NCBI GenBank assembly: GCA_019635285.1
Contig: JAHBZS010000015.1
Location: 36,562-100,561, forward strand
Direction: 5' to 3'
Length of the DNA: 64,000 nucleotides
From: Rubrivivax sp.
GTDB taxonomy: Bacteria; Pseudomonadota; Gammaproteobacteria; Burkholderiales; Burkholderiaceae_C
Shown: positions 25,840-40,053 of the stretch, one piece after another
Position numbering within the stretch: the first letter of the stretch is position 1
Layout: the number at the start of each line of letters is the position of its first letter
Notes under the pieces: generated by a model
The model's database searches: none
The model's input: only the letters and a program-made list of their open reading frames with translations
What the model was told of the DNA's origin: nothing
Position numbers and translations under genes: made by a program

Positions 25840-26760
25840 GTGACCCATCGGCGAGCCGTTTTCCTGATGATCTGCGTGACGCTGATGTGGAGCATCGCGG
25901 GCATCGTCACGCGCCATCTCGACAGCGCGCGCGGCTTCGAGGTGACCTTCTGGCGCAGCCTGTTCAACGCGCTGGCGCTGCTGCTGGTGCTGGGCGCGCT
26001 GCAGGGGCCGGCGCGGCTGTGGCGCACGCTGCGCAGCGGCGGCCGGCCGCTGTGGATCTCCGGCCTGTGCTGGTGCGTGATGTACACCGCCTTCATGGTG
26101 GCGATCACGCTGACCACGGTGGCCAACGTGCTGGTGACCATGGCGCTGGCGCCGCTGTTGACGGCGTTGTGCGCGCGCGTCGCGCTCGGCCATCGGCTGG
26201 CCTTGCGCACCTGGGTGGCCATCGCCGTGGCCGGTACCGGCATCGCCTGGATGTACGGCAGCGAACTGGGCGGTGGCGATGCGCGCCATTGGCTCGGCAC
26301 GGCGGTGGCCTTGTGCGTGCCCGTCGCCGCCGCCATCAAGTGGACGCTGCTGCAGCACTTGTACCGGCGCGCCGCCAGCGAGCCGCCGCCCGACATGCTG
26401 GCGCCGGTGCTGCTGGGCGCGCTGCTGTCGGCGGCACTGACGCTGCCGCTGGCCTTGCCGCTGGCGGCGTCGGCGCACGACGTGGCGCTGCTGGCGCTGC
26501 TGGGCGTGGTGCAGCTGGCCATTCCCTGTCTGCTGGCGGTGCGCGTGGCGCGTGTGCTCAGCGCGCCCGAAGTGTCGCTGCTGGGCCTGCTGGAGGTGGT
26601 GTTCGGCGTGCTCTGGGTCTGGCTCGGCACCGACGAGGCGCCTTCGGCGTCGGTGCTCGGCGGCGGGTTGGTGGTGCTGTTGGCGCTGGCCGCCAACGAG
26701 ACGCTGGCGCTGCGCCGGCTGTTGCCGATGCCCGGCGTGTCGCACACGTCGCGCCGCTAG
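25840..26760 (+). CDS. EamA/DMT family transporter
   Basis: This 306-aa inner-membrane protein has about ten hydrophobic helices in two EamA repeats, starting MTHRRAVFLMICVTLMWSIA. Relatives export or import small metabolites such as amino acids; the substrate is unknown. The start is a GTG at 25840 shortly after the typA-side hairpins. A basic C-terminus (HTSRR) faces the cytoplasm. It stands alone between typA and the GntR gene. Confidence 0.85.
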   Translation: MTHRRAVFLMICVTLMWSIAGIVTRHLDSARGFEVTFWRSLFNALALLLVLGALQGPARLWRTLRSGGRPLWISGLCWCVMYTAFMVAITLTTVANVLVTMALAPLLTALCARVALGHRLALRTWVAIAVAGTGIAWMYGSELGGGDARHWLGTAVALCVPVAAAIKWTLLQHLYRRAASEPPPDMLAPVLLGALLSAALTLPLALPLAASAHDVALLALLGVVQLAIPCLLAVRVARVLSAPEVSLLGLLEVVFGVLWVWLGTDEAPSASVLGGGLVVLLALAANETLALRRLLPMPGVSHTSRR

Positions 26761-26837
26761 CCGCTGACCGCTAACGGCGGTCTGGGTGCGCGGGGTTCCC
26801 GGCTAGCGCAGCGCCTGCCCGATGCGTACATCCCCTA

Positions 26838-26849
26838 GTTTGATCAAAC
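26838..26849. promoter_or_regulatory. 12-bp palindrome upstream of the GntR gene (candidate operator)
   Basis: GTTTGATCAAAC is a perfect palindrome in an AT-richer patch about 100 bases before the GntR start. Position and symmetry suit an autoregulatory operator of the FCD-type regulator. This is inference. Confidence 0.5.
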
Positions 26850-26948
26850 ATCACGTATCGCCTATCGTCGATGGATTCCCTACTGCTGGCAGGTCATGCC
26901 TCTCCACGAGGGCATCCCACGAAAGCTCCATTTCTGCTGCGTCTTGCC

Positions 26949-27674
26949 ATGACCGACCTCCGCAGTTCCCGCGCCCCGGGCGCCGCCGGCCTGGATGTGC
27001 CTTCCGGCCCGCTGACGGCGCTGCAGCCCATCGTGCGCCAGTCGGTCAACGAGGCGGTGTACCGGGCACTGCGCAACAAGCTGATGCACGGTGAATACCG
27101 CGCCGGCCAGCAACTGGGCATCCAGGAACTGGCCGACGCGCTGGAGACGAGCACGATGCCGGTGCGTGAGGCGCTGCGGCGCCTGGTCGCACAGCAGGGC
27201 CTGGAGCCGATGCGCAACGGCTGCACCCGCGTGCCGCTGATCACGCCGGCGCGGCTGGCCGACATCCGCCGCGCGCGCGTGCTGGTCGAAGGCACGGTCA
27301 CCGAATGGGCCGGCCCGCGCCTGCCGGCCCGCACGCTGGACCAGCTGAACCAGCTGGCGCGAGAGATCACCGAGGAGCGCCGCACGCGCGAAGGCGTGCC
27401 CAGCAGCCTGGAGAAGAACCGCATCTTCCACTTCACCATCTACGGCGCGGCCGAGTCCCCGGTGATGCTGGCGATGATCGAGAGCCTGTGGCTGCAGTCT
27501 GGCGCCTACCTGCGCGAGACCCGCGAGCTGCTGCACACCGACGACAAGCCGGCCGACCACCTGCACGAGCAGACCGTCGAGGCGCTGCTCGCCGGCAACT
27601 GGCCGCTGGCGCGCCAGCACATCCAGGCCGACATCAGCTGGGTCTTCGATCGCCTCGAGCCGCTGGGCGGATGA
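26949..27674 (+). CDS. GntR family regulator, FCD subfamily
   Basis: This 241-aa protein has an N-terminal winged helix ([36 protein letters not shown], about 30-95) and a C-terminal all-alpha FCD domain ([18 protein letters not shown] onward) with histidines that usually bind a metal and an acid ligand ([22 protein letters not shown]). FCD members commonly sense sugar acids or other carboxylates and repress the adjacent operon. Start ATG 26949 ([11 protein letters not shown]) is preferred; the frame is open to an ATG at 26871. The stop overlaps the dehydratase start. Confidence 0.9.
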
Positions 27675-29428
27675 CCCTGATGGCCCGTCCACCCCTGTCG
27701 CAGCGCAACCTCCACATGCCCCAACAACCCCGCTCCCGCATGGTCACGCAGGGCGTGACCCGCACGCCCCACCGGGCCTTTCTCCGGGCCACCGGCCTGG
27801 ACGACGACGACCTGAACAAGTCGATGGTCGCCATCATCGGCACCGCGGGCGACAACACGCCATGCTCCCAGTCGCTCGGCCCGCAGGCCGACAGCGCCCG
27901 GCTCGGTGTGGCCGAAGGCGGCGGCGTGCCGGTGATCATGAACACCATCTCGGTGTCCGACGGCACCTCGATGAACCATGACGGCATGCGCATGAGCCTG
28001 ATTTCGCGCGAGCTCATCGCCGACAGCATGGAAGTGGCGGTGCGCGGCCATGCCTACGACGCGCTGGTCGGCTTCGGCGGCTGCGACAAGACGCTGCCCG
28101 GCACGCTGATGGCGATGGTGCGGCTGAATGTCCCGTCGGTGTTCGTCTACGGCGGCTCGATGCTGCCCGGCTATTCGCCCGACGGCAGCGAGAACACCGT
28201 GCTCACCGCCATCGAAGGCGTGGGTCGCGTGCAGAGCGGCGCCATCACGCTGGCGCAGTTGCAGGGCATCGAGCGCCGCTGCGCGATGACGGTGGGTTCG
28301 TGCCCCGGCCAGTTCACCGCCAACACGATGGGCATGATCGCCGAGGCCTTGGGCCTGTCCTTCCTCGGCTCGTCCACCATACCTGCCGTGTACAGCCAGC
28401 GCCACGCGCTGGCCCGGCGCGCCGGGCGCCGGGCGATGGAGATCCTGACGCAGGGCGGGCCGCTGCCGCGCGACCTGGTGACGCGCAAGAGCCTGGAGAA
28501 CGCCGCCGCCGCCGCCGCCGCCACCGGCGGCTCGACCAACGTCGCGCTGCACATCCCGGCCATTGCGCACGAGGCCGGCATCCGCTTCACGATGGACGAT
28601 CTGGCGGAGGTGTTCGACCGCACGCCGCTGATCGCCGACCTGCAGCCGGGCGGCCGCTACCTGGCCCGCGACCTCGATGTCATCGGCGGCGCGCCGGTGG
28701 TGTTCAAGGCGCTGCTGCGCGGCGGCCATCTGCATGGCGACACGCTGACACTGACCGGCGAGACGCTGGCCGAGGCGCTGGAGCGCTTCCCTGACCCCGA
28801 CGGCCGCATCGTGCGCGACAGTGCGCAGCCGCTGCATGCCAGCGGGGGGCTGGTGGTGCTCAAGGGCAACCTCTGCCCGCACGGCGCGCTGCTGAAGATC
28901 GCCGGGCTCAAGGCCCTGAGCTTCGAAGGCCGCGCCCGCGTCTTCGAGACCGAAGAAGACTGCATGCGGGTGGTGTCGGCGCGGGCCTACCAAGAGGGCG
29001 ACGTGCTGCTCATCCGCAACGAGGGCCCCCGCGGCGGCCCGGGCATGCGCGAGATGCTCAGCGTCACCGCGGCCATCTACGGCCAGGGCCAGGGCGAGAA
29101 GGTGGCGCTGCTGACCGATGGCCGCTTCTCCGGCGCGACCCGGGGCATGTGCATCGGCTACGCCAGCCCCGAGGCGGCTGCGGGCGGCGCCATCGGCCTG
29201 GTGCGCGATGGCGACCGCATCAGCATCGACGCGGCCGCGGGCCGCATTCATCTGCACGTCAGCGATGCAGAACTGGCCGAGCGCCGCCAGCACTGGCAAC
29301 CCCATGTGCGCGGGCGCCTGGCCGGCGCGATGGAGAAATACGCCCGCCTGGTCGGCCCGACGCACGAAGGCGCCGTGACCCATTCGGGGCTGGCCGAGTG
29401 GCCGCTCGAGACGCCGTCGGACACCTAG
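27671..29428 (+). CDS. IlvD/Edd family dehydratase
   Basis: This 585-aa enzyme belongs to the iron-sulfur dehydratases that convert dihydroxy acids or sugar acids to 2-oxo acids. All three cluster cysteines of the [2Fe-2S] type are present: Cys65 ([10 protein letters not shown]), Cys138 (GGCDKTLPG) and Cys211 ([12 protein letters not shown]). Given the GntR/TRAP operon it probably acts on a sugar acid, although housekeeping dihydroxyacid dehydratase (IlvD) cannot be excluded. The ATG at 27671 overlaps the GntR stop (ATGA); ATG 27716 ([13 protein letters not shown]) also fits relatives. Confidence 0.85.
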
Positions 29429-29437
29429 GATGACACG

Positions 29438-29475
29438 GCCCCCACGCTCACTGCGTTCGCGGCCCCCGACGGGGC
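29438..29475. repeat. GC-rich intergenic repeat, copy 2
   Basis: GCCCCCACGCTCACTGCG...GGCCCCCGACGGGGC between the dehydratase and the dehydrogenase. It resembles the copies at 22459-22498 and 36262-36300 in order of blocks (CCCAC, CGCTxxCTxCG, GCCCC, GGGGC). Confidence 0.6.
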
Positions 29476-29484
29476 GACACTGAC

Positions 29485-30381
29485 ATGAAACTCGGATTCT
29501 GCGGACTGGGACTGATGGGCGCGCCGATGGTGCGCCGCCTGCTGGCGGCGGGCCACCAGGTGCAGGTGTGGAACCGCTCGGCGGCCAAGGCCGAAGCGCT
29601 GGCCGCACAGGGCGCGCGCGTGGTCGGCAGCGCGCGCGAGGCCGCCAGCGGCGTCGACGGCGTGCTGATGTGCCTGTTCGACGCCCACGCCGTCGAGGCG
29701 GTGGTCTTCGGCGCGGACGGCGTGGCGGAAGCGACGGGCCTGCGCTGGCTGGCCGACCATTCGAGCATCGACCCGGCGGCCACGCGGACGCTGGCGGCGC
29801 GCCTGGCGCAGGCCAGCGGCGCCGACTGGATCGACGCGCCGGTCTCGGGCGGCATCGCCGGCGTCGAAGCCGGCACGCTGGCCGTGATGACCGGCGGCGC
29901 GCCGACGCACATGGCGCAGGCGGCCGAGGCCATGCGGGCCTACGCGGGCAACGTCACCCACATGGGCCCCGCGGGCGCGGGCCAGGCCACCAAGCTGTGC
30001 AACCAGACCATCGTCGCCACCACCGTGGTGGCCATCGCCGAAGCGCTGGGCTTTGCCGCGCGCAACGGCATCGCCCTGGACAAGCTGGCCGGCGCACTGG
30101 CGGGCGGCTGGGCCGACTCCAAGCCGCTGCAAGTCTTTGCCCCGCGCATGAACGAAGCCCAGCCCACGATCATCGGCGCGCTGTCGACCATGCTCAAGGA
30201 CGTGGACACCGTGCTCGCCAACGCACAGCGCAGCGGCGCGCCGATGCCGGTGACGGCCGGCGTGCAGCAGGTGCTGCGCGTGGCCGACGCCATGGGTTTG
30301 GGCCAGGCCGAACTGTCGGCGGTGATCAGCGTGGTGCGGCCCGAGCTGCGCGAGGCCTTCCTGCGCCAGGTTCCGGCCTGA
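29485..30381 (+). CDS. NAD(P)-dependent beta-hydroxyacid dehydrogenase (3-hydroxyisobutyrate dehydrogenase family)
   Basis: This 298-aa protein has the N-terminal Rossmann motif GFCGLGLMGAPMVRRL, the substrate motif DAPVSGG (117-123), the catalytic Lys170 in GAGQATKLCNQ and the KDVD motif near the C-terminus. Family members include 3-hydroxyisobutyrate, tartronate semialdehyde and L-threonate (LtnD) dehydrogenases. Beside an OtnI-like isomerase and a DenD-like protein, a four-carbon sugar acid substrate is the most likely. Only nine bases separate it from the next gene. Confidence 0.87.
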   Translation: MKLGFCGLGLMGAPMVRRLLAAGHQVQVWNRSAAKAEALAAQGARVVGSAREAASGVDGVLMCLFDAHAVEAVVFGADGVAEATGLRWLADHSSIDPAATRTLAARLAQASGADWIDAPVSGGIAGVEAGTLAVMTGGAPTHMAQAAEAMRAYAGNVTHMGPAGAGQATKLCNQTIVATTVVAIAEALGFAARNGIALDKLAGALAGGWADSKPLQVFAPRMNEAQPTIIGALSTMLKDVDTVLANAQRSGAPMPVTAGVQQVLRVADAMGLGQAELSAVISVVRPELREAFLRQVPA

Positions 30382-30390
30382 GGCACGCGC

Positions 30391-31176
30391 ATGCAACTGG
30401 CCGCCAATCTCAGCTGGCTGTACCGCGACCTGGACTGGGGCGCGCGCTTCGAGGCCGCCGCGCGCGACGGCTTTCGCGCCGCCGAGATCCTGCTGCCTTA
30501 CGAGCACCCACCGCAGTGGTATGCCGAGCGGCTGCGCGATGCCGGCCTGGCGCTGGTGTTGATCAACACGCCGATCGCCCCCGGCGCGGGCCGCCTGGGC
30601 TGGGCCGCACTGCCGGGCGCGCAGGCCGAGTTCCGCGCGGCGCTGGACCGCGCACGTGCCGTGGCCCAGGCCACCGGCTGCCCGGCGCTGCACGTGATGG
30701 CCGGCCACGTGGCCGAGCATGCCACGGCGGACTGCGACGCCACGCTACGCCGCAACCTGGAGTGGGCCCTGGCCCGCACCGATGCAGACGGCCTGCTGCT
30801 GACGCTGGAGCCGCTGAACCGCCGCGACATGGCGGGCTACCACTATCACCACCCCGACCAGGTGCTGGCGGTGCTGCGCGACCTGCCGTCGCCGCGGCTG
30901 CGCCTGCAGTTCGACTACTACCACGTGGCCATGGAGGGGCTGGATCCGCTGGCCACCGTGCAGGCATGCGCACCGCACATCGGCCATGTGCAGATTGCCG
31001 GGGTGGACGGCCGTTTCGAGCCCGACCTGCACGCGGGCCATCTGCTCGACGCGGTGGCGGCGCTGCCCGACCTGGGCTACGACGGCTGGCTGGGCTGCGA
31101 ATACCAGCCGCGCAGCACGGCCGCTGCGGGCCTGGGCTGGTGCGAGCCGCTGCGCGCGCGGGGCCGGCTCGCATGA
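30391..31176 (+). CDS. Hydroxypyruvate isomerase-like sugar isomerase (OtnI family)
   Basis: This 261-aa TIM barrel of the AP-endonuclease 2 family matches Hyi/OtnI in length and active site. Glu140 (LTLEPLN) and Glu237 (GCEYQPR) lie three positions from the E. coli Hyi pair 143/240. FDYYHV and HVQIAGVDGRFEPD supply metal ligands. OtnI converts 2-oxo-tetronate to 3-oxo-tetronate; Hyi interconverts hydroxypyruvate and tartronate semialdehyde. The neighbouring dehydrogenases favour the tetronate role. The stop overlaps the next start (ATGA). Confidence 0.85.
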   Translation: MQLAANLSWLYRDLDWGARFEAAARDGFRAAEILLPYEHPPQWYAERLRDAGLALVLINTPIAPGAGRLGWAALPGAQAEFRAALDRARAVAQATGCPALHVMAGHVAEHATADCDATLRRNLEWALARTDADGLLLTLEPLNRRDMAGYHYHHPDQVLAVLRDLPSPRLRLQFDYYHVAMEGLDPLATVQACAPHIGHVQIAGVDGRFEPDLHAGHLLDAVAALPDLGYDGWLGCEYQPRSTAAAGLGWCEPLRARGRLA

Positions 31177-32117
31177 GGCATGTGCTGGTCACCGGCGCCG
31201 GCGGCTACATCGGCCGGGCGCTGTCTCGCGCGCTCGTGCCGGCGCTGCGCGACGGCCGCACGCAGACCCTGACGCTGGTCGATCTGGATCTGCCGGACAC
31301 CGAGGCCGACGCGCCGGGCTTGCGCCGGCTGCGCGGCGACCTCGCCGACCCCGACGTGCTGCGCGCCGCGACCGAGCCGGCGCCGACCACGGTGTTCCAC
31401 CTGGCCGGCATCACCAGCCGCCTGGCCGAGGAACACTTCGCGCTCGGCCTGCGCGTCAACCTGCTGTGCACCGTGTCGCTGTTCGAGCGCCTGCGCGAAC
31501 AGGCGCAACAACCGGTGCTGGTCTACGCCAGCTCGATCGGCGTCTTCGGCACGCCGCTGCCCGAACACATCGACGACGCCACGCCGCCCGCGCCGACGCT
31601 GAGCTACGGCGCGCAGAAGCGGGCGATCGAAGTTCTGCTGGCCGACTACACCCGGCGCGGCTGGATTGACGGCCGCGCGCTGCGTCTGCCCACCGTGGTC
31701 GCGCGGCCTGCGCAGGCGCAGGTGGCGTTGTCCTCCTTTGCCAGCGAGCTGATCCGCGAGATCGCCGAAGGCCGCCCCTACACCTGCCCGGTGGGCGCGG
31801 ACGCGCAGCTGTGGTGGCTGTCGCTGCCGGCCTGCGTCGAGCATCTGCGCCACGCAGCGGCCTTGCCGGCCGATGCGCTGCCGGCCCAGCGCGTCTGGTC
31901 TCTTCCGGCGCTGCGCGCCAACGTGGACGACGTGGTGCAGGCGCTGCGCCGCCGCTTCGGCGCCGAAGTCGACGCGCGGCTGCGCTTTGCGCCGCAGGCC
32001 GCGCTGCAGGCGCAGTTCGCACAATGGCCGCCACTGTCCACCGCGACCGCGCGCCGTCTGGGTCAACAGCACGACGGCGACCTGGACACCCTGATCGAGC
32101 GCGCGCTGGGCCGCTGA
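31173..32117 (+). CDS. NAD-dependent epimerase/dehydratase family protein (D-erythronate dehydrogenase-like)
   Basis: This 314-aa extended short-chain dehydrogenase shows GAGGYIG (8-14), the active-site serine pair in VYASSIGVFG and the YxxxK motif at Tyr145/Lys149. The VYASSIGVFG segment and overall length resemble DenD, which oxidises D-erythronate at C2, making it a natural partner of the upstream OtnI-like gene. The ATG lies inside the OtnI stop; the long open frame upstream is shadow sequence. It could instead be a uronate dehydrogenase. Confidence 0.8.
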   Translation: MRHVLVTGAGGYIGRALSRALVPALRDGRTQTLTLVDLDLPDTEADAPGLRRLRGDLADPDVLRAATEPAPTTVFHLAGITSRLAEEHFALGLRVNLLCTVSLFERLREQAQQPVLVYASSIGVFGTPLPEHIDDATPPAPTLSYGAQKRAIEVLLADYTRRGWIDGRALRLPTVVARPAQAQVALSSFASELIREIAEGRPYTCPVGADAQLWWLSLPACVEHLRHAAALPADALPAQRVWSLPALRANVDDVVQALRRRFGAEVDARLRFAPQAALQAQFAQWPPLSTATARRLGQQHDGDLDTLIERALGR

Positions 32118-32165
32118 CGATCGACCGAGCCATCCCGACCCTCCCACTGCCGAAAGGACCACCCC

Positions 32166-33209
32166 ATGACTCTCCGTTGGAACGCCCCGGTGCTCGCGCT
32201 GGCCACGGCCGCCGCGCTGATCGCCGTCTCACCCGCGCAGGCGCAGCCCAAGCCCGTCGAGCTGAACTTCTCGGTCTGGATTCCGCAGACGCACATCCTG
32301 GTCGCCAACTTCATGGTGCCCTGGTCACAGGAGGTGGAGAAGGCCACCGAAGGCCGCGTGAAGATCAGCTTCCTGCCCAAGCCCGTGACGAACCCCGTGG
32401 GCCATCTGGACGCGGTGCGCAATGGCGTGGTCGACCTGGCGTTCATCTCGTATTCGTACTACCCGGGTCGCTTCGACCTGATGAAGTACGCCATCCTGCC
32501 GTTCTCGGGCAACTCCGCGCTGTCCACCTCGGTGGCCAGCTGGCGCATCTACGACAAGTACCTGCGCGCGGCGGTGGACATCCCGGGCGTCAAGCAGCTC
32601 GGCATCTACGGCCACGGCCCGGGCGGCGTCTACACCTCGGGCAAGGCGGTCGAGAAGATCGACGACTTCGAAGGCCTGAAACTGCGCATCGGCGGCGGCA
32701 TCCAGGCCGATCTGGCCAAGGTGCTGAAGTTCAACGCGGTGGTCAAACCGGCCCCCGAGTCCTACGAGCTGATGAGCACCGGCGTGGTCGACGGCGTGTT
32801 GTTCCCGCCCGAGTCGGTGGCCTCGTTCCGCCTGGACGGGCTGGTCAAGACGGCCACCGTCTTTCCCGGTGGGCTGTACTCCGACGTGCACGGCATCATC
32901 ATGAACGAGAAGTCCTTCGAGCGCCTCTCGCCCAAGGACCAGGCCATCGTCCTGAAGCTCTCCGGCGAGCACCTGGCACGCCTCGGGGGCAAGGCCTGGG
33001 GCGATGCCGACACCGCCGCGCTGGAGTCGCTGAAGGCCAAGGGCGTGGTCTTCCACCCGGCCAGCGACAAGCTGGTCGCCGACATCAAGGAACGCACTGC
33101 CGGCTTCGAGAAGGCCTGGCTGGAGGCCGCCAAGGCCAAGGGCATCGACGGCCCCAAGGTGCTGGCCGAGTTCCGCGCCGAACTCAAGTCGCTCGAAGGC
33201 GGCAAGTAG
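32166..33209 (+). CDS. dctP: TRAP transporter substrate-binding protein (DctP family)
   Basis: This 347-aa periplasmic protein has a signal peptide ending near residue 25 (AVSPAQAQP). Typical DctP segments follow: FMVPWSQEVEKATEGRVKIS, GIYGHGPGGVYTSGKAVEKIDDFEGLKLRIGG, and STGVVDGVLFPPESVASFRL. The helix-forming C-terminus is complete. TRAP receptors bind organic acids, often sugar acids. It has AAAGGA before the ATG and is followed by a hairpin before dctQ. Confidence 0.92.
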   Translation: MTLRWNAPVLALATAAALIAVSPAQAQPKPVELNFSVWIPQTHILVANFMVPWSQEVEKATEGRVKISFLPKPVTNPVGHLDAVRNGVVDLAFISYSYYPGRFDLMKYAILPFSGNSALSTSVASWRIYDKYLRAAVDIPGVKQLGIYGHGPGGVYTSGKAVEKIDDFEGLKLRIGGGIQADLAKVLKFNAVVKPAPESYELMSTGVVDGVLFPPESVASFRLDGLVKTATVFPGGLYSDVHGIIMNEKSFERLSPKDQAIVLKLSGEHLARLGGKAWGDADTAALESLKAKGVVFHPASDKLVADIKERTAGFEKAWLEAAKAKGIDGPKVLAEFRAELKSLEGGK

Positions 33210-33236
33210 GCGCCGCATCGACCTGATCGCTGTAGT

Positions 33237-33258
33237 GGCGCGCCCTGGAGGGCGCGCC
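33237..33258 (+). other. Intercistronic hairpin between dctP and dctQ
   Basis: GGCGCGCCC-TGGA-GGGCGCGCC is a perfect 9-bp stem with no T tract. Such hairpins in TRAP and ABC operons tend to stabilise the upstream mRNA, allowing an excess of binding protein over permease. Confidence 0.65.
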
Positions 33259-33278
33259 TGTTCCGCACCGCCCGCCGC

Positions 33279-33761
33279 ATGAAAACCCTTCTTCGCCTGT
33301 TGCAAGCTGCCCTCAAGCGCCTGGCCGAGTGCTGCATGGTGGCCCTCGCGCTGTTGACCCTGGCCGACGTGCTGGGCCGCTACGTGTTCAACGTCTCGGT
33401 CATGGGCGCCGTCGAAGTGACCGAGATCCTGATGGTCGGCGTGATCTTCAGCGGCATGCTGCTGGCCACGCTCGCGCGCGAGCATGTCGTCGTCGACCTG
33501 CTGCCGATCTCCGCAGGGCGCCTTGGCCGGCGGGCGGTGCTGTGGCTCAGCCATCTCACCGCCGCCGGCGTCAGCGCCCTGCTGGGCGCGACAAGCTGGA
33601 GCCAGGCCGCATCGGCCCGCGAGTTCGGCGACCAGACGCAGATGCTGAACCTGCCGCTGGCGCCGGTCGTCTACTTCATGAGCGCCATGCTGTTCGTCAA
33701 CGCCCTGGTGCAGATCGGCCTGCTGTGGTCCGACCTGCGCGGGGAGGGCGCCGATGCTTGA
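33279..33761 (+). CDS. dctQ: TRAP transporter small permease (DctQ family)
   Basis: This 160-aa inner-membrane protein has four predicted helices (CCMVALALLTLADVLGRYVF; VTEILMVGVIFSGMLLATLA; AVLWLSHLTAAGVSALLG; APVVYFMSAMLFVNALVQIG). It is the small subunit of the TRAP permease, and it overlaps dctM by 8 bases. Confidence 0.9.
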   Translation: MKTLLRLLQAALKRLAECCMVALALLTLADVLGRYVFNVSVMGAVEVTEILMVGVIFSGMLLATLAREHVVVDLLPISAGRLGRRAVLWLSHLTAAGVSALLGATSWSQAASAREFGDQTQMLNLPLAPVVYFMSAMLFVNALVQIGLLWSDLRGEGADA

Positions 33762-35046
33762 GGCGCTGCTCGGCTTCGGCGCCATGCTGGCGCTGATCTT
33801 CCTGCGCGTGCCGGTCGCGTTCGCCATGGCCGTGACGGGCATGGCCGGCTTCGCGGCGATGCGCGGCTGGCCATCGGCCTATGCCGCGGCCGGCGCCGTG
33901 GTGCGCGAAAGCGGCTTCCAGTACCTGCTGTCGGTGGTGCCGCTGTTCGTGCTGATGGGCAACTTCATCACGCGCTCGGGCCTGTCGAAGGAGCTCTACG
34001 CGGCGGCGTACGCCTTCCTCGGGCATCGCCGGGGCGGGCTGGCCATGTCCACGGTGGTCGCCTGCGGCGGCTTCGGTGCGGTCTGCGGCTCCAGCCTGGC
34101 CACCGCCGCGACCATGTCGCGCGTGGCCTATCCAGAGATGCGCAAGCTGGGCTACAGCGAGGCGCTGGCCTCGGGCTCGATCGCCGCCGGCGGCACGCTG
34201 GGCATCCTCATTCCACCTTCGGTGGTGATGGTGGTCTACGCCATCCTCACCGAGCAGAGCATCGGCAAGATGTTCGCCGCCGGCATCCTGCCGGGCCTGG
34301 TGGCCATCAGCCTGTACCTGCTGGCCGTGCAATGGACCATCTGGCGCCACCCCGATGCCGGCCCGCCCGGCGAGCGCTACACCTGGGCGCAGCGCCTGGG
34401 CGCACTGCGCGACGTGTGGGGCGTGCTCGTGCTGTTTGCCGTCGTCATGGGTGGCATCTACGGCGGCGTCTTCAGCTCCACCGAGGCCGCCGGCATCGGC
34501 GCCTGCGGCGCCTTCTTGTTCGCGCTGCTGCGCCGGCGCCTCGACCGGTCCGTGCTGTCGACCGTGCTGGTCGAGTCGGCCCGCACCACGGGCATGCTCT
34601 TCATGGTGCTGATCGGCGCGCTGATCTTCGCCAACTTCATCAACTTCACGACGCTGCCGACCGACCTGAAGGACGCGATCCGGCACTTCGACCTCAGCCC
34701 GCTGGCCGTCATCCTGATCATCTGCGCCATCTACATCGTGCTGGGCTGCGTGCTCGAAAGCATGTCGATGATCCTGCTGACGGTACCCGTGTTCTATCCG
34801 CTGGTGCAGCACCTGGGCTTCGACATGATCTGGTTCGGCATCCTGGTGGTCGTGGTCACCGAGATCAGCTTCATCACGCCGCCGGTCGGCCTGAACGTGA
34901 TGATGCTCAAGAGCCTGCTGCCCGACATCCCGATGCGCACGATGTTCCGCGGCGTCATGCCCTTCGTGGTGGCCGACCTCGTGCGGCTGGCCATCCTGAT
35001 CGCCTTTCCTTCCATCACGCTGCTGCTGCCGCGCTACCTGGGCTAG
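33754..35046 (+). CDS. dctM: TRAP transporter large permease (DctM family)
   Basis: This 430-aa membrane protein has about twelve helices and the family landmarks VVPLFVLMGNFITRSGLSKE, CGGFGAVCGSSLATAATMSR, SGSIAAGGTLGILIPPSV and VVTEISFITPPVGLNVMML. It forms the sodium-driven translocation channel with DctQ. It ends three bases before the NIPSNAP gene. Confidence 0.94.
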   Translation: MLEALLGFGAMLALIFLRVPVAFAMAVTGMAGFAAMRGWPSAYAAAGAVVRESGFQYLLSVVPLFVLMGNFITRSGLSKELYAAAYAFLGHRRGGLAMSTVVACGGFGAVCGSSLATAATMSRVAYPEMRKLGYSEALASGSIAAGGTLGILIPPSVVMVVYAILTEQSIGKMFAAGILPGLVAISLYLLAVQWTIWRHPDAGPPGERYTWAQRLGALRDVWGVLVLFAVVMGGIYGGVFSSTEAAGIGACGAFLFALLRRRLDRSVLSTVLVESARTTGMLFMVLIGALIFANFINFTTLPTDLKDAIRHFDLSPLAVILIICAIYIVLGCVLESMSMILLTVPVFYPLVQHLGFDMIWFGILVVVVTEISFITPPVGLNVMMLKSLLPDIPMRTMFRGVMPFVVADLVRLAILIAFPSITLLLPRYLG

Positions 35047-35048
35047 CC

Positions 35049-35381
35049 ATGATCGTCGACCAGAGAACCTACACCGTGCAGATCGGCAAGCTGCGCGACT
35101 TCCTCGCGCTCTACGCCGCGGAGGGCCTGGCGGTGCAGACCGAGCACCTGGGCCCGCCGATGGGCTACTTCACCACCGAGGTGGGGGATGTGAATCAGGT
35201 GGTCCACCTGTGGCGCTACACCGACATGGCTGACCGCGAGCGCCGGCGCGCCGCGCTGGAGGCCGACCCGCGCTGGCTGGCCTACCGCCGCAAGGCCGCT
35301 GCCGATGGCCAACTGGTGCGCCAGCAGAACGCGCTGCTGCGCGACGTTGACTTCAGCGCCTTCGGCAGCGCGCGCGCCTGA
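35049..35381 (+). CDS. NIPSNAP family protein
   Basis: This 110-aa protein shows the NIPSNAP pattern: a VDQRTYTVQIGKLRDFLALY strand-helix start, VVHLWRYTDMADRERRRAAL in the middle, and an RQQNALLRDVDFS end. These ferredoxin-like dimeric alpha-beta barrels have no firm function in bacteria. They recur next to TRAP transporter genes of Burkholderiales, which suggests a role in the same catabolic unit. Confidence 0.83.
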   Translation: MIVDQRTYTVQIGKLRDFLALYAAEGLAVQTEHLGPPMGYFTTEVGDVNQVVHLWRYTDMADRERRRAALEADPRWLAYRRKAAADGQLVRQQNALLRDVDFSAFGSARA

Positions 35382-35474
35382 ACTGCGCGGCAAGGTCCGA
35401 ATAGGGGCGCCGCTCCAGTCCACGACGGCAGCGGCCGTTACTATCGATGCGAACCGTCTAGAGGGAGTTGCCAG

Positions 35475-36254
35475 ATGTCCACTGAATCGACCGCCGAGGT
35501 GCGCCCGCCCAGCCCCTGGCTGCTGCTGGCCGAAGGAGGGCGCGCGCCTTGGGAATACGCGGCGACGCTGGCCGCAATGCCGTGGCTCAACCGCGTGCCG
35601 CCCGGCGACGGCCATCCGGTGATCGTCTACCCCGGCCTGGGCGCGTCGGAGCTCAGCACGCGGGCGCTGCGCAGCTACCTGGGCCGTCTGGGCTACGCCA
35701 CCTACGACTGGGGCCTGGGCCGCAACCGGCCGGTGCCGGGTGTGATGGAGGCCTGCCGGCAGCGTGTGCTGGACGTGGCCTCGCGCCACGGCCGCAAGGT
35801 CAGCCTGGTGGGTTGGAGCCTGGGCGGCGTCTACGCACGCGAGCTGGGCAAGCATCTGCAGGCGCAGACCCGCTGCGTCATCACGCTGGGTTCGCCCTTC
35901 TCGGGCGACACGCGGGCGACCAACGCCACGCGAGCCTACGAACTGATGGGCGGCCGGCCGGCGCGTCACGACCCCGAGCGCGCCGAACGGCTGCGGCGCG
36001 CGCCGAACGTGCCCACGACGTCGATCTACAGCAAGAGCGACGGTGTCGTCGCCTGGCAATGCAGCCTGAACGACGCGGCGCCGCATACCGAGAACGTCGA
36101 GATCCATGCCAGCCACATGGGCCTGGGTGTCAACCCGCTGGCGCTGTTCATCGTGGCAGACCGCCTGCGGCAGGACCCCGCGCAATGGCAGCGCTTCGAC
36201 GCGCAGGCGCTGCCGCGCTGGCTGTTCCGCACCGACGCAGGGGCGGCACACTGA
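35475..36254 (+). CDS. Alpha/beta hydrolase (lipase/esterase-like)
   Basis: This 259-aa protein lacks a signal peptide. The nucleophile elbow is GWSLGG, the acid probably Asp in SKSDGVVAW, and the histidine in IHASHMGLGVNP. VIVYPGLGASELSTRALRSY supplies an oxyanion loop. The arrangement resembles PGAP1-like or lipase-like hydrolases; the substrate is unknown. GAGGGAG lies before the ATG, preceded by a possible TACTAT -10 element, so it probably has its own promoter. Confidence 0.75.
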   Translation: MSTESTAEVRPPSPWLLLAEGGRAPWEYAATLAAMPWLNRVPPGDGHPVIVYPGLGASELSTRALRSYLGRLGYATYDWGLGRNRPVPGVMEACRQRVLDVASRHGRKVSLVGWSLGGVYARELGKHLQAQTRCVITLGSPFSGDTRATNATRAYELMGGRPARHDPERAERLRRAPNVPTTSIYSKSDGVVAWQCSLNDAAPHTENVEIHASHMGLGVNPLALFIVADRLRQDPAQWQRFDAQALPRWLFRTDAGAAH

Positions 36255-38308: not shown

Positions 38309-39394
38309 ATGCGTGTCGACGGCCAGCCGCGACGCACGCTGTGGCCGGCGGACGGGCAGGACGCGCTGTACGTCATCGACCAGCGGCAGCTGCCGCATCG
38401 GCTGGCCGTCGAGCGCCTGGACAGCGTGCCAGCCGTGCTCGTGGCGATCCGCGACATGTGGGTGCGCGGCGCGCCGCTGATCGGTGCCACCGCGGCCTAT
38501 GGGCTGGCGTTGCAGGCACGGGTGGACGGATGCGACGCGGCATTGCAGGCCGCGGCCGCACAGTTGCGCACGGCCCGGCCGACGGCGGTGAACCTGGCTT
38601 GGGCGCTGCAGCGCATGCTGCGCCGGCTGCTACCGCTGCCGCCGGCCGAGCGCGCGGTCGCTGCCTGGCAGGAGGCGGCGGCCCTCGCCGACGAGGACGT
38701 GGCCACCAACCAGGCCATCGGCCGCCATGGCTTGGCGCTGCTGGCCGATCTGGCCCGCCGCCGACCCGGGCCGGTGCGGGTGCTGACCCACTGCAACGCC
38801 GGCTGGCTGGCCACGGTGGACTGGGGCACGGCGCTGGCGCCGGTGTACCAGGCGCGGGCCGCCGGCATCGACCTGCAGGTGTGGGTCGACGAGACACGGC
38901 CGCGCAACCAGGGCGCCAGCTTGACGGCCTGGGAGCTGGCGCAGCAGGGCGTGGCGCACACGCTGATCGCCGACAACGCCGGCGGTCACCTGATGCAGCG
39001 CGGACTGGTGGACATCGTCATCGTCGGCTGCGACCGCGTCGCCGCCAACGGCGACGTGTGCAACAAGATCGGCACCTACCTGAAGGCGCTGGCCGCGCGC
39101 GAGCACGGCGTGCCCTTCCATGTGGCGATGCCGCTGTCGACGCTGGACCTGTCGTTGCCCGACGGCCTGCAGATCCCCATCGAGGAACGCAGCGCGCGCG
39201 AGCTGACGCACATCACCGGGCGAACCGCTGGCGGTGACGTGCTTGAAGTGCAGCTGGCGCCCGACGGCTGCGCGGCCGCCAACCCGGCCTTCGACGTCAC
39301 GCCGGCGGCCTGGGTGAGCGGGCTGATCACCGAGCGTGGTCTGGTCGCGGCGCGGCGCGAGGCGCTGCAGGCCTTGGTGGAACGCCCGGCATGA
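38309..39394 (+). CDS. mtnA: S-methyl-5-thioribose-1-phosphate isomerase
   Basis: This 361-aa enzyme of the eIF2B-alpha-like family converts methylthioribose-1-phosphate, and by promiscuity 5-deoxyribose-1-phosphate, to the ribulose form. RGAPLIGATAAYGLAL, THCNAGWLATVDWGTALAP (catalytic Cys), DETRPRNQGASLTAWEL and VGCDRVAANGDVCNKIGTY (catalytic Asp) are all present. Its stop overlaps the start of a class II aldolase, implying one pathway. No mtnB, mtnC or mtnD of the full methionine salvage route lies nearby. Confidence 0.93.
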   Translation: MRVDGQPRRTLWPADGQDALYVIDQRQLPHRLAVERLDSVPAVLVAIRDMWVRGAPLIGATAAYGLALQARVDGCDAALQAAAAQLRTARPTAVNLAWALQRMLRRLLPLPPAERAVAAWQEAAALADEDVATNQAIGRHGLALLADLARRRPGPVRVLTHCNAGWLATVDWGTALAPVYQARAAGIDLQVWVDETRPRNQGASLTAWELAQQGVAHTLIADNAGGHLMQRGLVDIVIVGCDRVAANGDVCNKIGTYLKALAAREHGVPFHVAMPLSTLDLSLPDGLQIPIEERSARELTHITGRTAGGDVLEVQLAPDGCAAANPAFDVTPAAWVSGLITERGLVAARREALQALVERPA

Positions 39395-40053
39395 CGGCCG
39401 ACGCAGCCACGTTGAGCGCGCAGGCGGTGGCCGCGATGCAACGCCTGGACGCGCTGGGCCTGAACCGCGGCAGCACCGGCAACCTGAGCCTGCGCTGCGC
39501 ACGCGACGGGCGCGACGGCATGCTGATCACGCCCACCGGCGTCGGCGCCGAGGAGTTGCAGCCGTCGCAGATGGTCTGGGTGGGGCTGGACGGCGACGTG
39601 CAGGGGGACTGGCACCCGTCGTCGGAATGGCCGTTGCACCGGGCGGTGCTGGCGCGCCGCCCGGACCTGCAGGCGGTGGTGCACACGCATTCGGTGCACG
39701 CCACCGCGCTGGCCTGCCTGCAGCGCGAACTGCCGCCCTTTCATTACATGGTGGCGGTGTGCGGTGCCGACCGCGTGCCGTGCACGCCGTACCACCCCTT
39801 CGGCAGCGACGCGCTGTCCGCCGCGGTGGCGCAGGCGCTGGGCGACCGCCAGGCCTGCCTGATGGCCCAGCACGGGCTGGTGGCCGCCGGTGCCACGCTG
39901 GCGCAGGCGATGCGCGTGGCGGTCGAGATCGAGGCGCTGTGCGAGGTCTACCTGAAGGCGCTGGCGGTGGCCGAGCCCGCAAACCTGAGCGCCGCGCAGA
40001 TGGCTGAGGTGCTGCAGCAGTTCAAGCGCTACGGGAGCGCTCGTCGGCGCTGA
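39391..40053 (+). CDS. Class II aldolase, FucA-like (probable 5-methylthio/5-deoxyribulose-1-phosphate aldolase)
   Basis: This 220-aa zinc aldolase aligns along its length with L-fuculose-1-phosphate aldolase: GSTGNLSLR, PSSEWPLHRAVLARRPDL, AVVHTHSVHATAL (zinc histidines), PPFHYMVAVCGADRVPCTPY, MAQHGLVA and QQFKRYG at the end. Being translationally coupled to mtnA, it most likely acts as the Ald2 aldolase of the DHAP shunt, cleaving the isomerase product to DHAP plus (methylthio)acetaldehyde. MtnB dehydratase, also of this fold, is the main alternative. The 3' end overlaps the convergent exporter gene by 32 bases. Confidence 0.85.
   Translation: MTADAATLSAQAVAAMQRLDALGLNRGSTGNLSLRCARDGRDGMLITPTGVGAEELQPSQMVWVGLDGDVQGDWHPSSEWPLHRAVLARRPDLQAVVHTHSVHATALACLQRELPPFHYMVAVCGADRVPCTPYHPFGSDALSAAVAQALGDRQACLMAQHGLVAAGATLAQAMRVAVEIEALCEVYLKALAVAEPANLSAAQMAEVLQQFKRYGSARRR

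Follow-up and report, generated by a model that had tools for sequence, protein, structure and literature searches.

What does an operon degrade when it joins relatives of tetronate-pathway enzymes to an IlvD/Edd-family dehydratase and a full TRAP transporter? The question is raised by nine same-strand genes at 26949-35381 (+ strand) of a 64,000-nucleotide stretch of Rubrivivax sp. DNA (hereafter the window), which encode, in order, a GntR-FCD regulator, the dehydratase, a HIBADH-type dehydrogenase, an OtnI-like isomerase, a DenD-like dehydrogenase, the transporter proteins DctP, DctQ, and DctM, and a NIPSNAP-domain protein (Table 1). Our tentative answer, held with somewhat less than even confidence, is that the operon serves, under GntR control, to catabolize an aromatic hydroxy acid, the likeliest being a 3-aryl-2,3-dihydroxypropanoate (arylglycerate) or a closely similar compound. 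The answer builds on what we observed of the gene content, the conservation of the set, the families and Fe-S motifs of its products, its presence in genomes without the DUF1537 kinase OtnK, and the structural grouping of its receptor. Related loci and contigs of the window's genome are numbered with L and C, respectively.

The operon and its dehydratase

The operon is a real gene set. Family scans bore out the gene order, strand, and families given in a preliminary description made from the sequence alone, including the full TRAP transporter, of which DctP, DctQ, and DctM are all present; the range given there had included the NIPSNAP gene without naming it. This gene starts 2 nt past dctM (its family scan ran from 35043). 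The OtnI/DenD (31173/31176) and DctQ/DctM (33754/33761) gene pairs overlap as described, and the remaining gaps are 69 nt or less. A third overlap, claimed between the GntR and dehydratase genes (27671/27674), is not secure because the dehydratase start codon is uncertain: a start at 27671 produces the overlap, and one at 27716 leaves a 41-nt gap. In the L006 homologue, the first in-frame start after the stop gives a protein of 570 amino acids, which would put the window start at 27716, and the same length was read in five other close homologues of the dehydratase (L008, L009, L010, L033, and L043). Further, the GntR-FCD gene has another in-frame ATG upstream, at 26871. The G+C fraction of the operon (0.708) shows no anomaly against that of the window (0.695), and a promoter and terminator scan returned no promoter-like site and one terminator-like match, inside dctM, which is below the shuffle mean of 2.1. 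Family scans of the operon itself found no kinase, decarboxylase, aldolase, 2-oxo-3-deoxy acid enzyme, sugar dehydrogenase, or lactonase. The families are known, but such a combination and its substrate appear uncharacterized, and we found no description of such an operon in the titles and abstract openings of the openly licensed literature.

Table 1. Genes of the operon, with coordinates in the window and the family evidence for each (scores as bits/cut-off)
Product	Position	Strand	Evidence
GntR-FCD regulator	26949..27674	+	Pfam GntR and FCD above cut-off; no NCBIfam equivalog above cut-off
IlvD/Edd-family [2Fe-2S] dehydratase, distinct subfamily	27716..29428 (alternative start 27671)	+	PRK00911 and subfamily motifs
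HIBADH/tartronate-semialdehyde-reductase-type dehydrogenase	29485..30381	+	Pfam above cut-off; all NCBIfam below cut-off, best 203/341
OtnI/Hyi-like TIM-barrel isomerase	30391..31176	+	NF043033 220/325; TIGR03234 196/353
DenD-like extended SDR dehydrogenase	31173..32117	+	NF043036 268/325
DctP periplasmic receptor of TRAP transporter	32166..33209	+	Pfam; 4p56 418 bits; model pLDDT 91.8; PDB comparison
DctQ small permease	33279..33761	+	Pfam above cut-off
DctM large permease	33754..35046	+	Pfam and TIGR00786 above cut-off
NIPSNAP-domain protein	35049..35381 (ATG at 35049, stop at 35381)	+	Pfam NIPSNAP 99.7/22.3

The dehydratase has both Pfam domains of the IlvD/Edd family and, as had been claimed, the three cysteines of a [2Fe-2S] enzyme (Cys65, Cys138, and Cys211), together with the catalytic Ser487 (numbering of the 585-residue frame). 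It scores 762 bits with PRK00911 (cut-off 644) and 600.9 bits with the equivalog TIGR00110, just below the cut-off of 618. The motifs NTPCS, GCDKTLP, and RFSGATRG are common to all 52 aligned dehydratases of at least 65% identity (window included; 49 without duplicates), and G[SA]CPGQF occurs in all but L018 (GACAGQF). In the passages of Melse et al. 2022 (PMC9314677) that give class motifs for IlvD/Edd enzymes, the housekeeping branched-chain class has GCDKNM, G(A/S)CGG, and SGGT, the sugar-acid class has GCDKTT, GHC(M/N)T, Gly261, and SGTA, and the promiscuous class (SsDHAD) has GCDKTT, GTCSG, Phe261, and SGAT. The window dehydratase, with GCDKTL, GSCPG, Phe261 (placed by counting from the third cysteine), and SGAT, falls into neither of the first two, agrees with the third at Phe261 and SGAT but only partly at the other two motifs, and fully matches no class of the scheme in those passages. 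It is also not the only IlvD of the genome, the point that the preliminary description had named as one that could overturn it, because four IlvD/Edd genes are present (window, C15, C11, and C61). We rejected it as the housekeeping IlvD, as the housekeeping dihydroxy-acid dehydratase (DHAD) motifs (ITPCN, GCDKNMP, and SGGT) belong to the C15 copy; the C11 copy is sugar-acid-class-like, and C61 carries others. We conclude that, on sequence grounds, the window dehydratase belongs to a distinct IlvD/Edd subfamily with its own Fe-S motifs.

These motifs bear on a further reading, in which the operon acts on an aliphatic dihydroxy acid, branched or otherwise, and its dehydratase is a catabolic copy of DHAD. 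The enzyme is closest to DHADs by model and structure, in SGAT and in the Phe of its third-cysteine motif it looks like the promiscuous class as set out in those passages, and its partner is of the HIBADH family; the fixed motif differences from the C15 copy and the aromatic grouping of the receptor (see below) point the other way, and we consider this reading quite improbable.

Relatives of the dehydratase were encoded at 45 loci in one scan of genome contigs, the closest coming from Pusillimonas and Alcaligenes (85-86%). In a draw of 399 genomes of the family (the window's own included), at least 34 matched at E ≤ 1e-170 and at least 14 (own included) at 65% identity or more, figures that are lower bounds, with three candidates scored per genome. 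Wider stretches were taken for 18 places, and 68 loci were mapped with known proteins; 52 entries besides the window have an IlvD of at least 65% identity, which leaves 49 loci after removal of duplicates (L107 = L012, L108 = L036, and L110 = L046). Twenty-one distinct loci, some of them cut by contig ends, have an IlvD of at least 76% identity; in these, a HIBADH gene adjoins in 20 (the other, L015, stops at a contig end), OtnI, DenD, and NIPSNAP genes are each found in 16, 2-hydroxyacid dehydrogenase in 15, and DctP in 11. Because of these counts, we take IlvD and HIBADH to be the core of the set and the other parts to be variable. SDR and MFS transporter genes replace DenD and TRAP in relatives from Achromobacter, Pandoraea, and Bordetella; a Sulfitobacter dubius plasmid holds together a TIM-barrel gene (33% to OtnI), IlvD (60%), HIBADH (48%), and a TRAP system; and flavin mononucleotide (FMN) hydroxyacid dehydrogenase is added in two Alcaligenes loci. 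The window operon has neither this enzyme nor 2-hydroxyacid dehydrogenase. Plasmid relatives carry the annotation ilvD.

Receptor, neighboring genes, and candidate substrate

DctP is 56% identical to PDB entry 4p56 (418 bits). When its predicted structure (an alignment-based model with a predicted local distance difference test score, pLDDT, of 91.8; an earlier single-sequence model at 36.6 was discarded) was compared with the PDB, the next matches after 4p56 were mostly aromatic-acid receptors. By sequence and structure comparison, the receptor groups with TarP-type aromatic-acid receptors, its identity to TarP and marine aromatic receptors being only 22-29%. A search, made without a positive control, for a close DctP in 15 genomes from the genus to which the L017 genome belongs found none (0/15).

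Aromatic genes adjoin several of the related loci. Tryptophan dioxygenase stands next to the operon in six (L006-L009, L043, and L013; above cut-off where scanned, in L006), accompanied by an aromatic transaminase in L006 (above cut-off), L007, and L013 and by KynB-like and RidA genes in all of the six except L006. In L013, the transaminase, dioxygenase, KynB-like, and RidA genes run co-directionally into IlvD-HIBADH-NIPSNAP-2HADH. A block of RidA, KynB-like hydrolase, tryptophan dioxygenase, and Lrp genes recurs in L007 (5232-9203), L008, L009, L043, and L013 (1695-5660), and no kynureninase gene was seen in it. In L033, Rieske-type subunits like those of benzoate/anthranilate dioxygenase, none of which reaches its equivalog cut-off, stop immediately ahead of the GntR gene. 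Paraburkholderia caribensis has, upstream of LysR-MFS-SDR-IlvD (67%)-HIBADH, an OtnI-like gene and one whose nearest match is beta-phenylalanine aminotransferase (4ao9, 540 bits); on this plasmid 1, which has almost no annotation, two class III aminotransferases flank the OtnI-like gene (L174, 2141-5639). The window's genome itself encodes tryptophan dioxygenase and 4-hydroxyphenylpyruvate dioxygenase elsewhere.

From this material we infer the substrate, the order of the reactions, the exact reaction of each enzyme, and any role of the NIPSNAP protein. DctPQM would import the aromatic hydroxy acid, and the IlvD-type enzyme would remove the C3 hydroxyl as water without phosphorylation (Ar-CHOH-CHOH-COOH -> Ar-CH2-CO-COOH). 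The DenD-, OtnI-, and HIBADH-like enzymes may convert hydroxyls to ketones and back at C2 and C3, whereby other stereoisomers or oxidation states would be converted to the form that the dehydratase accepts. The resulting arylpyruvate-type 2-oxo acid would pass into aromatic amino-acid metabolism; in the relatives, 2-hydroxyacid dehydrogenase, FMN hydroxyacid dehydrogenase, and aromatic transaminase may feed or drain it. A broader version, which we regard as rather doubtful, is that an uncharacterized [2Fe-2S] IlvD/Edd subfamily turns arylglycerates into arylpyruvates and anchors a mobile pathway, with DenD, OtnI, and HIBADH as a C2/C3 redox-isomerase module that would channel stereoisomers, or beta-amino analogues in some hosts, toward the metabolism of aromatic amino acids.

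Several points weigh against an aromatic substrate. No aromatic genes adjoin the operon within the window, and the aromatic neighborhoods are few independent events, given as raw counts. The aromatic PDB entries near DctP represent only about four receptors, and mandelate is a presumed ligand of 4p56 (BB2442). The families of the partner enzymes have known roles with C3-C4 acids, and we know of no aromatic substrate for the IlvD/Edd superfamily. Further, sugar-acid genes lie near other related loci: in L115-L118 (one genus), the related dehydratase is part of an island that includes a glucarate-dehydratase-like gene (789 bits, cut-off 829) in L117 and a beta-propeller lactonase in L118; an RraA-like aldolase gene is upstream in L114; tartronate semialdehyde reductase (above cut-off) and a GarL/HpaI-type aldolase are encoded on the other strand of L010, 8-9 kb away; and an altronate/galactarate-type dehydratase adjoins in the distant L042, L045, and L047 (IlvD 51-53%). 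L045 (8350-16911) also holds a thiamine pyrophosphate enzyme, 2-hydroxyacid dehydrogenase, and FMN hydroxyacid dehydrogenase, and there the same dehydratase family is wired differently. Neither 4P56 nor mandelate is mentioned in the passages of PMC5812351 and PMC11668362, and the arylmalonate decarboxylase neighbors given in the passages of PMC4996985 include TRAP genes and no dehydratase.

The principal alternative is that a short sugar acid (tetronate or pentonate) is degraded without phosphorylation: a 2-oxo-3-deoxy acid would form through dehydration of the (2R) isomers by the IlvD-type enzyme, with the remaining isomers epimerized by the DenD-, OtnI-, and HIBADH-like enzymes, and would then be cleaved by an aldolase encoded elsewhere. 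The partner enzyme families and the sugar-acid genes near L010, L114, L117, and L118 speak for it, as do passages of PMC9314677, in which DHAD-type enzymes need the 2R form but tolerate either C3 configuration, as FtDHAD does, and FtDHAD takes L-threonate, so that a short sugar acid is chemically possible, and of PMC10079672, in which L-threonate dehydratase activity is known. It is opposed by the grouping of DctP with aromatic receptors, by the absence of sugar-acid-class motifs from the window dehydratase, and by the operon's having neither an aldolase nor a 2-oxo-3-deoxy acid enzyme. That Alcaligenes and Pusillimonas are asaccharolytic also counts against it, and we judge this alternative unlikely. 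The acid-sugar substrate of the preliminary description is thus not well supported; the neighborhood analysis of the dehydratase proposed there put aromatic genes beside several related loci, yet sugar-acid genes near others.

If the aromatic reading is right, aromatic compounds would join the substrate classes of a well-studied superfamily of Fe-S dehydratases, the names ilvD, OtnI, and DenD would mislead for these genes, and Alcaligenaceae- and Comamonadaceae-type bacteria would have a route for using aromatic hydroxy acids such as those derived from lignin or from aromatic amino acids. Were a short sugar acid the substrate, the operon would still be a kinase-free alternative to DUF1537 pathways.

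Kinase independence and the insertion site

Tetronate (DUF1537) pathways use DenD or LtnD, OtnI, OtnK, and OtnC. With the models for these pathways (NF043033, NF043034, NF043036, and NF043037), no operon enzyme reaches equivalog level as DenD, OtnI, or LtnD (Table 1); the HIBADH-type protein gives 130 bits with the LtnD model (cut-off 350) and its higher score, likewise below cut-off, with tartronate semialdehyde reductase. The OtnI-like protein is 38% identical to a Hyi-like protein on C35, and the DenD-like protein shares 39% identity with a C5 protein that passes the DenD cut-off and 47% with a DenD-like protein from C3. The OtnI-, DenD-, and LtnD-like proteins of the preliminary description are, by these scores, relatives and not the named enzymes. 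Its statement that the window lacks OtnK and OtnC holds for the operon and needs one caveat, a class II aldolase gene at 39391-40053 that gives 113 bits with the OtnC model (cut-off 250). We rejected this gene as OtnC: its best match is L-fuculose-phosphate aldolase (216 bits, cut-off 264), and because it directly follows mtnA (38309-39394), it is probably a methylthioadenosine-salvage gene. The pair (38309-40053; mtnA above cut-off, then the FucA-type aldolase) is probably a methylthioadenosine-salvage aldolase shunt, and an mtnA-fucA pair also lies 3' of dusC in the same-genus locus L173.

Kinase and OtnC genes elsewhere under the same regulator, which had been named as evidence against the non-phosphorylated route, are found in part: DUF1537 (257.5 bits) and then OtnC (250.2 bits, cut-off 250) stand on C1. 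The operon might accordingly be read as the initial part of a conventional tetronate pathway split over two loci, its DenD- and OtnI-like enzymes supplying OtnK and OtnC on C1 and the dehydratase being an extra. Model searches of the stretch around the C1 genes found no DenD or OtnI, as this reading would have it, and the over-cut-off DenD on C5 (L155, 4200-5552) is preceded just upstream by a 56-residue OtnI remnant, because of which the C5 tetronate locus looks eroded. However, the genome has its own over-cut-off DenD (C5) and Hyi/OtnI (C35), the best-conserved part of the set is IlvD, and related loci persist in genomes without OtnK; we hold this to be the least probable of the readings, and a very improbable one. 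The C35 protein was itself rejected as a tetronate enzyme: it passes the OtnI (373.5 bits) and hydroxypyruvate isomerase (391.7 bits) cut-offs alike, and its gene adjoins genes read, without family scan, as glxR and gcl.

Of 27 genomes searched, 12 had DUF1537 above cut-off; among the 17 with related loci (IlvD 77-86%), 10 had it, and seven, of unreported assembly completeness, had no match (Pusillimonas caeni, P. noertemannii, Alcaligenes pakistanensis, Alcaligenes sp. SORT26, Alcaligenaceae CGII-43, Pseudacidovorax RU35E, and P. intermedius NS331). The first four contain the full operon, and the record of SORT26 is titled complete genome; the CGII-43 locus has no GntR or NIPSNAP gene nearby, and the two Pseudacidovorax loci are without TRAP genes. 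The OtnC model (E ≤ 1e-20) matched in 12 of 20 genomes searched and in none of six of the DUF1537-free genomes, the seventh, P. noertemannii, giving only a remote match; in A. faecalis AU14, OtnC was not found, yet DUF1537 is present. Because related loci occur in seven of 17 genomes without a DUF1537 match, we conclude that the operon does not depend on the kinase, and the non-phosphorylated route that had been suggested is supported.

The EamA gene that flanks the operon is present in 11 of 12 other same-genus genomes searched. The site was compared in seven of these 11; in all seven, EamA follows TypA and the operon is not at the site. Further along, six of the seven carry at least one of the two hydrolase genes that lie downstream in the window, and the seventh has dusC-mtnA-fucA after EamA. 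A dehydratase match was found in none of five further same-genus genomes of the 399-genome draw, which partly overlap with these genomes. The stretch after EamA (window 26760-35475; L167-L173) is a variable site in the genus, with other genes, or none, before the hydrolase genes. To judge from these sites, the operon is an accessory, horizontally acquired cassette.

Comparison with known systems

The operon shares with tetronate pathways the families of the isomerase and one dehydrogenase, and either kind of locus can have a TRAP transporter and a local regulator of the GntR or a similar type; it differs in that its three enzymes fall below equivalog cut-offs, in having a dehydratase and no kinase or decarboxylase, and in having relatives in genomes without OtnK. 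As in the Weimberg and Dahms routes with their IlvD/Edd sugar-acid dehydratases, a 2,3-dihydroxy acid would be converted to a 2-oxo acid without a kinase, but the GCDKTT, GHC(M/N)T, and SGTA motifs are absent, as are a sugar dehydrogenase, lactonase, and 2-oxo-3-deoxy acid enzyme. IlvD of branched-chain synthesis is the closest enzyme family to the window dehydratase, and the three cysteines and the catalytic serine are kept; the window enzyme has NTPCS, GCDKTLP, and SGAT where the C15 copy has ITPCN, GCDKNMP, and SGGT, and its gene lies in a catabolic-type operon. Finally, TarPQM and related transporters, which like the operon have a full P-Q-M set, are the nearest structural group of the window DctP after 4p56; they differ by the low receptor identity given above, in that the downstream enzymes of the window are not CoA-ligase or ring-cleavage enzymes, and in that the ligand of the window DctP is a predicted one.

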